Shown: piece by piece, positions 5,535 through 16,890 of the stretch
Position numbering within the stretch: position 1 is the first letter of the stretch
Layout of the letters: every line of letters begins with the position of its first letter
Virus record (IMG/VR): IMGVR_UViG_3300012923_000003
Span: 1 to 51,448 of that record
DNA from: a virus
Length of the DNA: 51,448 bases
Reading direction: 5' to 3' (one strand)
The notes under the pieces: model-generated
Databases searched by the model: none
What the model was told of the DNA's origin: nothing
The model's input: the letters and a program-made list of their open reading frames with translations, nothing else
Translations under genes and position numbers: made by a program

Positions 5535-7020
5535 CCAACCACAGACCATCATCCACGCCAAGGCGGGACACCAAGTTCCCAAGGAATTGTGGGAGACTGC
5601 ATTACGCAAGTGTCCTACGGTATCTGGTTATGCCATCCGTGACACTCACGATGACAAGACCACTCTCGAAACTGAGCACTATACTCAGGCAGTCACCGTT
5701 GACAATATGTCGACACTGGAAGGGCAGGCCAAGGAATATGAACGAGTTTACTATCTAGCCAATCTTCCTGGCACTCATACTAAAGATGATGTGCAACCAT
5801 TTGTACTGACCATCATGGAAGATGAGCAGGACACTATCGGCATCGATATACTTTCCTTCTTTCTGGAAGGAGACTTCCCCAAATACTCTGATCCCAAATC
5901 AGGACACACTGACGAATACAATTTCGCCTATGAAATTGTTATCCCTACCTTGCAGGACATGTTCATGGCCGCCGGTCAAGACATCGCCCTGTTCACTGCT
6001 GCTCTGCACAAGCCATTGTTCGAGAAGAATTTGATGGCTCATGTCAACCATCGCGCGGCATTCGTGTTTCTTCCTCTACAGGGCGATCCGATTAAATTCG
6101 GTACCAATGAGCTGGGTCTCGGCGCTGACTGGGGTAGCTGCTCACAGCATTTAGACTTTGCCAAGGTGGAAAAACCTATTATCGCGGCAGTCGCAAAGGC
6201 GGCGGGGAAATTCAATCCATTTAAGAAGGCAGAGCCGGCATTGCCTGGAGGGGTTTACCATACTCCTGAAAAGAAGCCAGTCGAGGATCCAAAACCTGAT
6301 ACAGCAATCAACGCCGGCAAAAAGCTGATCAAACTTCCATCAAAACTGGATAAGTCTGGCAGGAACCGATGGCTACGTCTATTCAATGGTGGTGATCTGC
6401 CAAAAGATCATGATCATCGAGATTTCCAGGGTCTCTGGATTAGTCCGGAAGCTCTACCCTATGCACAACGCGATGTTGCTACATTGGCTCAGGTCGATGC
6501 TCTCGGAGCCGAGATGCGTAAGGGTGTTAAGTCTCCCCCCAAGGATATGCGGCCACCGCCAAGTTCTGCTACGGATTATCTGCCCACATTGACTGATGCA
6601 GACATGACCGAACAGACTGGCATCTTGGCCAAGTTCGTCGACCGCGACAAGGTGCCTTCAGCTCTGGATATTCAAAAGATGGAGGCCAAATGGCCAACCT
6701 ATTCGGAGAAGATGGGCATTCCATTCGAAGGTATGTTCCGTTGGACTGACATCGAAATTCTCGAAGTCTGCGGAGGACATAAACCAGCTATGATGTTGGT
6801 CTTGGAATTCAGACGTCGGCTGATCGAGAAGTGGGACCCTGCTGGCTTCACTGCTTCGGTCAAGACTGGAACCGAGGCTGCCAAACATGTTGCAGCCAAG
6901 GAAATCCTCAAACCCGGTGAAACCAAGCAAGTTGGTAGTACTACATTCAAAGCTGCGGCTGAACCGACCACTGCGGCAGCAAAGCGGAATGCCTTGTTCG
7001 GCATCAAGAAATCAGCTTAG
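5527..7020 (+). CDS. Large middle protein, 497 aa, possibly glutamine-amidotransferase-like N-terminal domain
   Basis: Residues about 1-215 show the order of elements of a class II glutamine amidotransferase (Ntn) fold. These are a SGYAIRD strand, a DVQPFVL segment where the family has N-x-(Q/H)-P-F, then LSFFLEGDF where the family has HNG, and a late GTNELGLGADWGSCS segment where the family has a W-x-S-N turn. The N-terminal catalytic Cys is missing, so if the relation is real the domain is probably inactive or altered. Residues about 215-300 are a Pro/Lys-rich linker. The C-terminal part is unassigned. The next gene looks like a gamma-glutamylcyclotransferase; the two folds are known together in amide-bond metabolism clusters. 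The fold call is weak. Confidence 0.75.
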   Translation: MINQPQTIIHAKAGHQVPKELWETALRKCPTVSGYAIRDTHDDKTTLETEHYTQAVTVDNMSTLEGQAKEYERVYYLANLPGTHTKDDVQPFVLTIMEDEQDTIGIDILSFFLEGDFPKYSDPKSGHTDEYNFAYEIVIPTLQDMFMAAGQDIALFTAALHKPLFEKNLMAHVNHRAAFVFLPLQGDPIKFGTNELGLGADWGSCSQHLDFAKVEKPIIAAVAKAAGKFNPFKKAEPALPGGVYHTPEKKPVEDPKPDTAINAGKKLIKLPSKLDKSGRNRWLRLFNGGDLPKDHDHRDFQGLWISPEALPYAQRDVATLAQVDALGAEMRKGVKSPPKDMRPPPSSATDYLPTLTDADMTEQTGILAKFVDRDKVPSALDIQKMEAKWPTYSEKMGIPFEGMFRWTDIEILEVCGGHKPAMMLVLEFRRRLIEKWDPAGFTASVKTGTEAAKHVAAKEILKPGETKQVGSTTFKAAAEPTTAAAKRNALFGIKKSA

Positions 7021-9501: not shown

Positions 9502-10308
9502 ATGATCTATCCGTGGAAACTTAACTTCTGGCAATCCGGTGAATGGCAGGTGTGCAATGAGAGGCTTAAAGATTTGGAAAAGGCTGGTACTACATACAAC
9601 CCTACGCGGGCAGATTTGTTCGCAGCTCTTCGAGCAACATCAGATCGCGATGTTCGCGTCGCGATTATCGGACAGGACCCGTACCCCGATAGCAGATATG
9701 CCACCGGTTTTGCTTTCTCCATTGCAAGAAGCTTCAATCCAAATGAGTTTCCACCAACCCTCAACGTCATCTTCAAAGAATATGTCGCCGACCTCGGATA
9801 CCCCTTTCCACGTTGTGGTGATCTCAGCCAATGGACAGCACAAGGAGTGCTTCTTTGGAACGCGGTCCCAACTTGTCAGTCAGGTCGATCTCTTTCTCAG
9901 GACTGGGACGAGTATTCCTTCCTTACAAAGGAGATCATTCAGCGTCTGTCTCAACGAGGTGTGGTGTTTGCATTTCTCGGGGCAGTTGCAAAACGGTATT
10001 TAGAATATGTTGATTTGACCAACAATGAGATCATCTTAACATCCCATCCATCACCACGTGCCAACAGGTTTTCAAGGACTCCGTTCGAAGGGTCCAGGTT
10101 GTTCTCAACCATCAATGATAAACTAATCTCTCAAGGCCTAGCTCCTATAAATTGGAGATTGGACGATGTACCAGATCGGAAGAACTCAGGTGAAACGGAA
10201 GTTCGGCAACATGGACGTGTATGGCATAGTAAACGATCTCTATCGTGGCAACCGGGGCAAGCTACTGGTGGAAGTAATAGCGACGGGCGGTTGGTGGTTC
10301 ATGAGTGA
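9502..10308 (+). CDS. ung: Uracil-DNA glycosylase, family 1 (UNG type), 268 aa
   Basis: It removes uracil from DNA by cleaving the N-glycosidic bond. The water-activating loop is GQDPYP (57-62, catalytic Asp59), where most family members have GQDPYH. LLWN (117-120) supplies the uracil-binding Asn. SHPSP (181-185) holds catalytic His182. The family normally ends shortly after the INWRL segment (about residue 220). The last ~47 residues are low in structure and overlap another gene at 10166, so the tail is probably dispensable. Phages more often encode UNG inhibitors than UNG itself. The position between helicase and polymerase suggests repair of phage DNA during replication. Confidence 0.92.
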   Translation: MIYPWKLNFWQSGEWQVCNERLKDLEKAGTTYNPTRADLFAALRATSDRDVRVAIIGQDPYPDSRYATGFAFSIARSFNPNEFPPTLNVIFKEYVADLGYPFPRCGDLSQWTAQGVLLWNAVPTCQSGRSLSQDWDEYSFLTKEIIQRLSQRGVVFAFLGAVAKRYLEYVDLTNNEIILTSHPSPRANRFSRTPFEGSRLFSTINDKLISQGLAPINWRLDDVPDRKNSGETEVRQHGRVWHSKRSLSWQPGQATGGSNSDGRLVVHE

Positions 10309-13744: not shown

Positions 13745-14239
13745 TTGGTTAAATACGGTAAGACAGAAACAGTTTATGTTCAAGGCAAGGTATCTTGGTT
13801 TAGAAACAAGACACCTAACCAATGGAATAAATACGCAGTTCAAATTCATCCTAATGTCAAAGACTTAGAAGTCATTCGTGAACTTCAATCCCAAGGCTTA
13901 AAGAATGTAATTAAGAAAGATGATGATGGATACTATATTAGCTTCACTAGACCGGTGACTAAAGAATATCAGTCTGGTAGAATACAAAGCTATGCACCAC
14001 CTACAGTGACTGATAAAGATGGTAACATCTATGAAGGTCAGGTAGGTAATGGCAGTGATGCTACTTTGAAGCTTGAAGTCTATGAGCATGCTACCCCAGG
14101 TGGTAAGAAAGCCAAAGCTGCTCGGTGGGTATCAGCTCGGATAGATAATTTAGTACCTTTTGAAACTGAGACAGATACTTTCCCTGAACAGAAGGTAGCC
14201 ATCGAAGGATTAAAGGAACAACCTGAACAGTTATTCTAA
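13745..14239 (+). CDS. Probable single-stranded DNA-binding protein (T7 gp2.5 position), 164 aa
   Basis: The TTG start follows AAGGATAATACAA. The protein is beta-rich and basic in the middle (YGKTETVYVQGKVSW, GGKKAKAARW), like an OB fold. Its C-terminus is acidic and ends in Phe (KEQPEQLF), as in T7 gp2.5, where the terminal aromatic residue is needed for protein contacts. It follows the polymerase gene. The identification rests on fold appearance, tail and context and is not certain. Confidence 0.65.
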   Translation: MVKYGKTETVYVQGKVSWFRNKTPNQWNKYAVQIHPNVKDLEVIRELQSQGLKNVIKKDDDGYYISFTRPVTKEYQSGRIQSYAPPTVTDKDGNIYEGQVGNGSDATLKLEVYEHATPGGKKAKAARWVSARIDNLVPFETETDTFPEQKVAIEGLKEQPEQLF

Positions 14240-14496
14240 TCCTCCAGAATACTAGTTGACTGGAGTGCCACATATCTCTCGTGTGCTAAGGATCCCGTAG
14301 GGCACCGGCGAGGGAAGCCCAACTAATACTTAATTCTACAGCATGAACCCTACACGCTTCCAGAAAGCTTACTAAGAAGTAAGCAACCCCACCCTCTGGT
14401 CGGACTCAGGTACCGGGCTGTATGAACCTCGGATATAGTCCGAGAGGAAATGAACCAATGTGACTTCCCTACTGGGAATGTAACCATCAGGGTGAC

Positions 14497-14553
14497 AACC
14501 TTAAAGTCAGCAATAGCCCAGGAAGATCGGTGCAAATCCGATAGAGGTTACCA
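14497..14553 (+). ncRNA. D-armless tRNA-like module 1
   Basis: A 5' arm AACCTTA pairs with AGAGGTT (6 of 7, one G-U). A T-arm-like hairpin ATCGG-TGCAAAT-CCGAT precedes the 3' arm, and ACCA follows it, as at a mature tRNA end. Between the 5' arm and the T-arm are 22 bases, too few for both a D arm and an anticodon arm. Confidence 0.4.
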
Positions 14554-14803
14554 AGGGGTCTACTTCTTAGGTAGATAAATCCTCTACTGTTCAAGGCGGT
14601 ACTGGTGAGCAAGATGGTGAGCAAAGGTAGCGAGCACAACCGTAAACCAGTCTCATTAGCTGGAGCGGCAGATAGCAAATAGAACGCGTATGTGGCGGCT
14701 ATGGTGCATAGTATGTCTAACCTCTGTAGAGGACGCGCATGAGGATAAAGGACTTGTCTTAAATGGCTAACAAGCTGAAGCGGTCTGAAGTTTGACTAGG
14801 TGT

Positions 14804-14856
14804 ACGGAATAAAGGTTGATCTACCACTCCCTGTTGGTTCGATTCCAACACTCCGT
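14804..14856 (+). ncRNA. D-armless tRNA-like module 2
   Basis: ACGGAAT pairs with ACTCCGT (6 of 7), and GTTGG-TTCGATT-CCAAC is a perfect canonical T-arm. The gap between the 5' arm and T-arm is again exactly 22 bases, as in module 1. The sequence after it can form a competing CTCCGT-GGG-ACGGAG hairpin. There is no encoded CCA. Confidence 0.4.
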
Positions 14857-15690
14857 GGGACGGAGACTGGCGGCAATGGTGGCGCGCATAAAGCTGAGCA
14901 AGTTTCGGTGCGATGCCGATAGAGCTTGAGTAGCAGATGGCTCAGTTAGTACCCGTGTAGTAGATGGATAGATGACCGAGGGACGTAGGCACTGTGAAAG
15001 GTGTCAATGCTGGTTCGAGTCCAGTCCTAGTATGTGTCGTAATGTAGTAGGCTTGTGATAAAAGCGAGATCCGAACTGGGAACACCATCAGTGACTGGTG
15101 TAGCGTTAAGGGTAAGAGATACCTCTCAGCCTCTCTGACCCCACTGTTACCACTGTTCGAGTAAGGTTGGCGCTCTAGATGTGAGTGACTCTTGAATACC
15201 CACACCCTTCAACATAGTCCTGAACCTACCCTAGACGGCCCTGTGGTTCTGGTCGCGTAGACGCAGCATTTCTTGTACCGCACACTGGATACGGATAACC
15301 TCCAGGCCTATGAGCGGGATGTGCAAGGAGTCGGAAGATCGAGAGATGCGCAGTAGCGAATAGTCTATTCGCAAGACTGGATATAGACTGTCTACATTGA
15401 CAGGGGTATGAACGCCGCGTAAAGATCACCGCGAGACGCGTACCAAGCAACCGACTACTGAGACTAAGCGTACCGCTGAAAAGGAAAGATAAGCATACGC
15501 CGAATAGCAACATAGGACGTATTATAGTAGGTCGTTACATGACTGAGATAATATGCAGTAGCTGGTCCAGCAAGTCCATAGAACTTAACCGTAGGAACAC
15601 CGGACTAGTGTTCAACTGCATGGAGGATGTACCGTGAATATTCGTTCCTCACAGCAGAAACCCAGACCTCCTTAAGAAAATCAACAGGCA

Positions 15691-15717
15691 GGGGTGGGCC
15701 ACGTTTGAGCCCACCCC
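15691..15717 (+). promoter_or_regulatory. Strong terminal hairpin of the non-coding region
   Basis: GGGGTGGGC pairs perfectly with GCCCACCCC over a 9-base loop. No T-run follows. It may mark the 3' end of the structured RNA or be a processing barrier 23 bases before the next ATG. Confidence 0.6.
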
Positions 15718-15739
15718 AAGCTACAAAGGAGAGCGTGCC

Positions 15740-16030
15740 ATGAAGAAGATTATCATGGTCGACCCTAATGATTTCTTCACCGGTCGATCAAAGCGTGATA
15801 TGATCCCAATGGATGATCTAAAAGTATACAAGAAATGGAAGAAGTTCTTGAAAAAGGAAGAAGAAGAGAAGAATAAAGCTAAGAAAGGCCCAGAAGGATG
15901 GTGGGCTAGGAAGTCTGTTGCCGAGAGGACATGTATCATTGCCATCTTTGGTCCGCCAGCAGGCATAGCTTATGTCTTCGGACTACTACAGGTTGCTAAA
16001 CTATTGGCTATATCGGCAGGTGTCCACTGA
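15740..16030 (+). CDS. Membrane protein with charged N-terminal half, 96 aa
   Basis: The ATG follows AAAGGAGAGCGTGCC. Residues 1-62 are strongly charged (KKWKKFLKKEEEEKNK). Residues about 65-92 are hydrophobic (CIIAIFGPPAGIAYVFGLL) and form one membrane helix, perhaps a hairpin at the Gly-Pro-Pro turn. Function unknown. It is the first gene after the structured RNA region. Confidence 0.7.
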   Translation: MKKIIMVDPNDFFTGRSKRDMIPMDDLKVYKKWKKFLKKEEEEKNKAKKGPEGWWARKSVAERTCIIAIFGPPAGIAYVFGLLQVAKLLAISAGVH

Positions 16031-16065: not shown

Positions 16066-16890
16066 ATGGTAGGTAAGGAAGAGAATTGGCTGACAAGTGA
16101 TATCGCTACTCAATTCACGTCTGAACTCACAATTAAACTCCAAGGATCCTTCAGTCCGCAAAGCCGCACTGGCTTACGTCTCAGCGGTCTGGGCCCAAAG
16201 TGCCCGGCACAACTGTGGTACTCAATACATACCCCATTGGCTGCAGAGCCCCTCCCCCCGTGGGCCAGGATCAAATATATCTACGGACACATACTTGAAG
16301 CGCTTGTAATCGCAATGGCCAAAGCCTCCGGCCACGAAGTAACAGGAGAACAAGATGCTGTATCTGTTGATGGGATCATCGGGCACCGAGATTGTGTTAT
16401 CGACGGGTGCATCGTTGATGTTAAGTCTGCTAGCAGCCGTGCTTTCCAAAAGTTCAAGGACGGTTCAATCGCATCCGACGATAGCTTCGGTTATCTTGAT
16501 CAACTTGATGGGTATCTTGTGGGCTCCTTGGATGATCACCTGGTAAGAAATAAGACTACTGCCTATCTATTAGCAATCGATAAACAATTAGGTCACATGG
16601 TGTTATATGAGCATACTGCGCGCGAAGAAAGTATTAGAAAAAGAATTCGAGATTATCGAGATGTCATCGCTCTTGATCGAGCTCCGCAATGCACTTGCGA
16701 AGAAGTACCCGATGGAAAGTCAGGAAACATTAGACTGGGCAATACAGCAAGCTATAACTCGTTTAAGTACCAGTGTCGTCCACAGCTTCGAACCTTTCGC
16801 TATAGCGACGGACTAAGATACTTAACCAAAGTAGTTAGAAAACCTGATGTTCCGGAGATAAATCGTCATGGACAAATCATATATAACTAA
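16066..16890 (+). CDS. PD-(D/E)XK exonuclease (RecB/Cas4-like nuclease fold), 274 aa
   Basis: The core GHRDCVIDGCIVDVKSAS (about residues 106-123) is the G-H-x-D ... D-x-K motif of this nuclease superfamily, preceded by a helix with Glu (GHILEALVIA). Later, QLDGYL and AYLLAIDK match the usual helix and strand. In phages with this layout it takes the place of the T7 gp6 5'-3' exonuclease, working with endonuclease I in host DNA breakdown and recombination. A cysteine pair (CTCEE) near 213 is too little for a Cas4-type iron-sulfur cluster. The frame extends upstream to a CTG at 16027 overlapping the previous stop, an alternative start adding 13 residues. Confidence 0.8.
   Translation: MVGKEENWLTSDIATQFTSELTIKLQGSFSPQSRTGLRLSGLGPKCPAQLWYSIHTPLAAEPLPPWARIKYIYGHILEALVIAMAKASGHEVTGEQDAVSVDGIIGHRDCVIDGCIVDVKSASSRAFQKFKDGSIASDDSFGYLDQLDGYLVGSLDDHLVRNKTTAYLLAIDKQLGHMVLYEHTAREESIRKRIRDYRDVIALDRAPQCTCEEVPDGKSGNIRLGNTASYNSFKYQCRPQLRTFRYSDGLRYLTKVVRKPDVPEINRHGQIIYN

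Follow-up and report, generated by a model that had tools for sequence, protein, structure and literature searches.

To our knowledge only few large structured RNAs of bacteria and phages have been described, and most of them are without an assigned function. Among these, GOLLD and ROOL are phage RNAs that form RNA-only cages and adjoin tRNA islands (PMC12286853). OLE RNA lies most often directly upstream of oapA, which encodes a membrane protein that binds the RNA (PMC12265935). The locus described here stems from one virus record of 51,448 b (the window, by which we mean this whole stretch). The window belongs to an uncultured T7-like phage lineage, with a DNA polymerase that is at most 39% identical to those of isolated Roseobacter and Lentibacter phages, its best match. 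We are practically certain that a region in its replication gene block represents a real, large and structured RNA.

A search with the Rfam 15 models, including those for GOLLD, ROOL, OLE, HEARO, the introns and tmRNA, matched no family. In the region nothing reached the gathering score, nor E ≤ 5 except for a meaningless SOX2OT match, and in 10 relatives nothing was found at E ≤ 1. The GOLLD, ROOL and OLE RNA covariance models likewise gave no match in the region or in the 10 relatives. Group I and group II introns and HEARO were set aside, having no Rfam match, and the region sits between intact genes. ARAGORN reported no tRNA gene in the window and 57 loci, and neither ARAGORN nor Rfam returned a tmRNA, in one or two pieces with a tag frame. 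A complete cloverleaf with a free acceptor end was not found either, ARAGORN giving zero and the acceptor being capped. By the tests applied the region is not GOLLD, ROOL, OLE, tmRNA or tRNA. A literature search, with most subscription papers and preprints outside its scope, gave no paper on this RNA or on a permuted tRNA-like phage RNA, and the RNA class appears to be undescribed in the literature and databases searched.

Between positions 14240 and 15739 no ORF exceeds 95 aa, and the longest pair, of 87 and 95 aa, runs antisense. A preliminary description of this DNA had seen no credible gene here and a G+C content above that of the neighbors. Both observations hold, the latter on the upstream side (0.49–0.51 in the region vs 0.35–0.39 just upstream), and the conserved reading frames in related phages that it had proposed to look for were sought and not found. 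An alignment with seven relatives contains 176 indels relative to the window, of which only 32 are multiples of three, showing that no reading frame is conserved in the region. With no conserved frame and indels that do not come in threes, a coding region is ruled out. Scans of the region for promoters and terminators gave nothing convincing: the promoter-like count was slightly above that of shuffled sequences and the terminator-like count equaled it. The features of the locus are collected in Table 1.

Table 1. Features of the RNA locus and its neighboring genes, in window coordinates.
Feature	Positions	Strand	Remarks
SSB-like gene, upstream neighbor	13745–14239	+	assigned by position and C-terminal tail; syntenic in relatives
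Large structured RNA, approximate limits	14322–15720	+	alignment start; CCNCCUUAA and covarying 3' hairpin
Hairpin CUCGGAUAUAGUCCGAG	14428–14444	+	covarying
T-loop hairpin AUCGG-UGCAAAU-CCGAU	14526–14542	+	not conserved in close relatives
Anticodon-arm-like hairpin CCAGU-CUCAUUA-GCUGG	14647–14663	+	5 bp, fixed 7-nt loop, covarying stem
Domain with closing helix 14770–14776/15050–15056	14770–15056	+	covariation
T-arm GUUGG-UUCGAUU-CCAAC	14833–14849	+	
Capped acceptor-like hairpin CUCCGU-GGG-ACGGAG	14851–14865	+	covarying (domain helix 7)
D-arm-like UGGCGGCAAUGGUGGCGC	14868–14885	+	weak form of the permuted module
T-loop hairpin UUCGG-UGCGAUG-CCGAU	14904–14920	+	domain helix 12
Hairpin with UGUGAAA-type loop, just 5' of the last T-arm	14987–15006	+	covarying (domain helix 14)
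T-arm GCUGG-UUCGAGU-CCAGU	15009–15025	+	domain helix 15
AAUGUAGUAGG..GUGAUAAAAGCGAGA	15041–15074	+	block with the highest conservation in the window's clade; alignment
Hairpin GCGAAUA..UAUUCGC	15356–15372	+	covarying
3' element CCNCCUUAA (CCUCCUUAA in the window)	15667–15675	+	near-universal
3' hairpin GGGGUGGGC..GCCCACCCC	15691–15717	+	covarying; no U-tract after it
96-aa partner candidate	15740–16030	+	Lys/Glu-rich middle, C-terminal membrane segment
Cas4-domain exonuclease-like gene, downstream neighbor	16066–16890	+	phrog_1990, E = 1e-20

Relatives were gathered by protein-anchored searches of viral contigs, which gave 58 dereplicated loci. All of these uncultured contigs have the gene order ssb-like, region, small ORF, cas4-like, with 1.5–4.2 kb between the ssb-like and cas4-like genes, while in more distant relatives (Cas4 identity below about 48%) this gap is only 0.2–1.0 kb. 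The isolated phages T5S1, CRP-13 and phiM6 carry compact genes at the locus, and no isolated phage with the RNA was found. A search of bacterial genomes for a host or prophage gave a single match, to a distant Cas4 of a Dependentiae MAG. The RNA locus is fixed in one lineage of uncultured soil phages, within the replication gene block. In the replication arm of the window we also noted a gene at 9502–10308 (+) that matches the uracil-DNA glycosylase superfamily (Pfam PF03167, E = 6.5e-13). The ssb-like gene itself has no Pfam or PHROG match. Nucleotide-level alignment with the window works for seven relatives, and most other loci have little or no blastn similarity to it. The divergent loci nevertheless have the motifs GGTTCGAGTCC, GTCTCATTAGC, GGAGGCTAAAAC, CCGGTGACAGACG and CCNCCTTAA in common, far above shuffled sequences. 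Two more members of the lineage were found through the RNA pattern alone (L163 536–575 (-) and L156 1797–1850). A recurring motif pair, GGAGGCUAAAAC and CCGGUGACAGACG at a distance of about 40–55 nt, was seen in L035 (623–690), L068 (578–630) and other relatives; it is absent from the window's clade.

The strong covariation signal in the region lies entirely on the + strand. For the domain at 14770–15056, the structure, which was predicted from the same alignment of five relatives on which its covariation was scored, has 79 pairs with 92.3% of cells paired in the window's clade, against 35–42% in slid controls. In it 27 pairs changed on both sides, compared with 12.2 ± 2.6 after shuffling, and none of 500 shuffles matched this value. 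Its closing helix reads ACAAGCU/GGCUUGU in the window and ACGAUCU/GGAUCGU, AUGAUCU/GGAUCAU and AUGGUCU/GGACCAU in relatives. Many further helices covary across the whole region. Because full-length alignment fails for the distant members, this covariation covers domains and modules rather than one common global fold. The folding energy of one domain is ordinary (z = -0.34), so that the case for structure rests on covariation and not on stability. The secondary structure is well supported in this way; the region would be transcribed and its transcript perhaps processed. The preliminary description had proposed one or more large structured RNAs and a search for covariation in related phages, and the covariation found there speaks for one RNA. 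The place of the T-loop hairpins in tRNA-like modules, the adjoining membrane-protein gene and the fixation in a single lineage had escaped that description. Of the hairpins that it listed, three (14428, 15356 and 15691) are confirmed and covary, whereas those at 14242 (14241–14264, in the 5' stretch) and 14367 are patchy: the former is absent from L002 and L020, and the latter occurs in only some relatives. As the conserved alignment begins at 14322, the RNA probably starts near this position rather than at 14240, and CCNCCUUAA together with the covarying 3' hairpin sets the 3' limit at about 15720. Within the lineage the RNA measures about 1.1–1.5 kb.

Two types of small hairpin recur in this RNA. 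The four T-loop hairpins reported at first sight are all present in the window (Table 1). Strict T-arm hairpins were counted 60 times, in 37 of the 58 homologous regions, and not once in 480 kb of flanking DNA, on the minus strand or in shuffled sequences. Hairpins with a CUCAUWA or CCCAUUA loop occur in 26 of the 58 regions, one in each, again with zero counts in the 480 kb of flanks and on the minus strand. When the tabulated hairpins of both types are compared, positions 1–5 pair with many different pair types, and from position 6 onward pairing is at chance level, showing that each arm has a stem of exactly 5 bp and a loop of 7 nt. This is the geometry of the T-arm and the anticodon arm of tRNA. 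The window loop CUCAU(U/A)A at 14652–14658 could in addition pair with the AUGAG of GNAUGAGG (around 14736–14746) in a possible pseudoknot; this candidate partner (AUGAG in GUAUGAGG) is invariant in the window's clade.

In many relatives (about 15), the T-arm is followed by a capped acceptor-like hairpin and then by a D-arm of the tRNA-Leu type, UGGCGNAANYGGNARACGC. On 11 divergent phages this module is 94.4% paired, and its covariation of 0.558 compares with 0.178 ± 0.034 in shuffled controls, none of 500 reaching it. All four acceptor pairs change on both sides, and in the D-stem C-G is exchanged for U-A. We built a covariance model, R1, for T-arm, capped acceptor and D-arm with the 11 phages as seed. 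It matched L081, L076, L077, L022, L073 and L021, all outside the training set, with E = 1e-9 to 1e-6, and also recovered L054 from outside this set. Among its tabulated matches, 69 of 76 fall within the region, on its + strand. The 11 seed phages and at least six further relatives have a tRNA-like T-arm and D-arm whose stems covary and whose loop residues are conserved. The bases 3' of the D-arm pair with those 5' of the T-arm in a closing helix (combined p = 2e-6) of up to 11 bp, which under a strict rule is missing beside the D-arm in L010 and L056. With a cloverleaf entered via the anticodon-stem position and an acceptor end that is closed, the arrangement amounts to a circular permutation. 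R1 lacks specificity, since in other phages it also picks up the junctions between tandem tRNA genes, but the acceptor strands form 5–10 bp in the capped type and only 0–2 bp at such junctions. We consider it very probable that the relatives contain a permuted tRNA-like module. For the window itself the chances are evenly balanced: R1 matches 14833–14885 weakly (E = 0.003), and in its own clade the T-arm and the capped hairpin are well established, while the alignment does not resolve a D-stem. Judging from the loop residues, the D-loop and T-loop may dock.

In distant relatives the corresponding gap, ahead of the cas4-like gene, holds tRNAs, namely an ordinary tRNA-Met (CAU, loop CUCAUAA) in L110 at 2888–2963 and a degenerate tRNA in L089 at 5616–5689. 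That the RNA descends from a tRNA gene once located here is offered as a suggestion only. T-arm, capped acceptor (5–10 bp) and D-arm were also seen outside ARAGORN tRNAs in unrelated phages, often near tRNA islands: L117 10489–10544 (-), L128 4353–4409, L131 23–75 (-), L143 3652–3709, L145 5996–6051 (-), L150 12949–12997 and L162 772–829 (-). These sites are possible permuted tRNA-like RNAs elsewhere.

At the 3' end, the element CCNCCUUAA was counted 50 times in the regions and twice in the flanks, at a median distance of 74 nt from the next gene. In 45 of 49 loci, a fraction biased upward by the choice of the most hydrophobic ORF among the candidates, the gene that follows codes for a protein about 98 aa long, which is Lys/Glu-rich in its middle (median 42% charged) and carries a membrane segment at its C terminus. 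When aligned, the tails of these proteins look homologous; the proteins of L007, L008 and L077 are similar but fall below the cut-off. The 96-aa ORF of the window has no Pfam or PHROG match.

The noncoding fold, the permuted tRNA-like pieces and the membrane-protein gene just downstream together point to what is probably an undescribed RNA machine. The RNA would fold into several domains with tRNA-type parts as joints. In many relatives the T-arm hairpins would lie in the permuted tRNA-like junction, which the rest of the RNA would enter through the anticodon-stem position. The RNA would be cut from the replication transcript or stay in it, and would bind the charged small membrane protein encoded beside it. 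The resulting membrane-linked RNA-protein particle might serve phage replication or host takeover. Taken as a whole, a new class of large structured phage RNA with tRNA-type parts, acting in such a particle, is the reading that we cautiously favor. The particle by itself is a tentative proposal, drawn from the partner gene in 45 of 49 loci and the OLE/OapA gene order. More speculative still is that a very large RNA made of duplicated, permuted tRNA pieces forms, with a dedicated membrane protein, a membrane-bound machine for replication or takeover.

Other readings have to be weighed. The RNA could act alone as an oligomer or cage, as the phage RNAs GOLLD and ROOL do (PMC12286853), with the membrane protein as an unrelated neighbor. 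It is indeed large, multi-domain and phage-borne, and its many fixed hairpin loops could dock or kiss. The missing sequence or model match to either RNA and a membrane-protein gene that comes next in nearly every phage make this unlikely. We see a still smaller chance that the CAU anticodon-arm mimic and the T-arms are a decoy that absorbs host tRNA-cutting or tRNA-modifying enzymes, for example the anticodon nucleases of defense systems. The exact 5-bp/7-nt geometry of both arms would suit this role, as would the CUCAUAA loop of some members, found likewise in tRNA-Met, the real tRNA-Met at the same locus in L110, and the single anticodon-like hairpin per phage in an otherwise fast-changing RNA. 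Against it, most members have U at loop position 37, unlike tRNA, only 26–29 of 58 have the anticodon-like hairpin, and a decoy needs neither 1.3 kb of conserved architecture nor the CCNCCUUAA end. Slightly less probable again is a giant leader that controls the downstream genes for the membrane protein and the Cas4-like exonuclease. The region is always directly upstream of them, CUCCUU is a potential pairing partner for AAGGAG, the ribosome site of the gene that follows, and the 3' hairpin is without a U-tract terminator. The third base of CCNCCUUAA varies, however (T, A, C, G), while the ribosome site and GGNGGCTAA show no corresponding change, and we know of no leader of such length. The idea that CCNCCUUAA pairs with GGNGGCUAA as an anti-Shine-Dalgarno element was rejected, as the variable base does not covary. 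Finally, a functionless relic of a decaying tRNA array is barely credible, since, for all the spacing of the tRNA-like arms (roughly 70–115 nt) and the R1 matches to tandem tRNA gene junctions in other phages, tandem or decayed tRNAs are ruled out by the ARAGORN null in 57 loci, by compensatory changes that keep the stems, by acceptor strands paired in a capped hairpin (86% of cells, vs 0–2 bp in tandem tRNAs) and by module flanks that close a helix.

In summary, this phage RNA is larger than GOLLD and among the largest structured RNAs known in phages. It is fixed in a defined lineage beside replication genes and has a candidate protein partner. The permuted modules hint at a way in which tRNA parts can be assembled into large RNAs, and the many divergent natural versions are a ready set for structure work. 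If the more speculative reading is true, a membrane-bound machine made of such an RNA and a dedicated small membrane protein would be a kind of system not described before.

Compared with known systems, the RNA resembles tRNA, tmRNA and viral tRNA-like structures in its 5-bp T-arm with UUCRA loop, its D-arm (UGGCGNAA..GGNARACGC) and its 7-nt anticodon-arm-like loop, and the permuted order is that of two-piece tmRNA genes. It differs from these in an acceptor stem that is capped by a short loop or cut to a 5-nt linker, and in a module without CCA end, anticodon or tag frame. Like OLE, it is a large and structured RNA followed immediately by the gene of a membrane protein that contains charged residues (PMC12265935), a parallel limited to gene order and membrane segment. 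OLE RNA has another sequence and structure (no Rfam match) and resides in Gram-positive chromosomes instead of phages, and OapA has four predicted membrane helices compared to one or two in the phage protein, which has about 98 aa and a C-terminal membrane segment. The comparison with GOLLD and ROOL drawn in the preliminary description stands for size class and phage context and fails on the Rfam match, the tRNA island and the parts. Like these RNAs, the one described here is large, elaborately structured, phage-carried and connected to tRNA; but here about 1.1–1.5 kb of RNA, with no tRNA island in the loci, has permuted tRNA-like parts built into its fold and is fixed beside ssb-like, cas4-like and membrane-protein genes.
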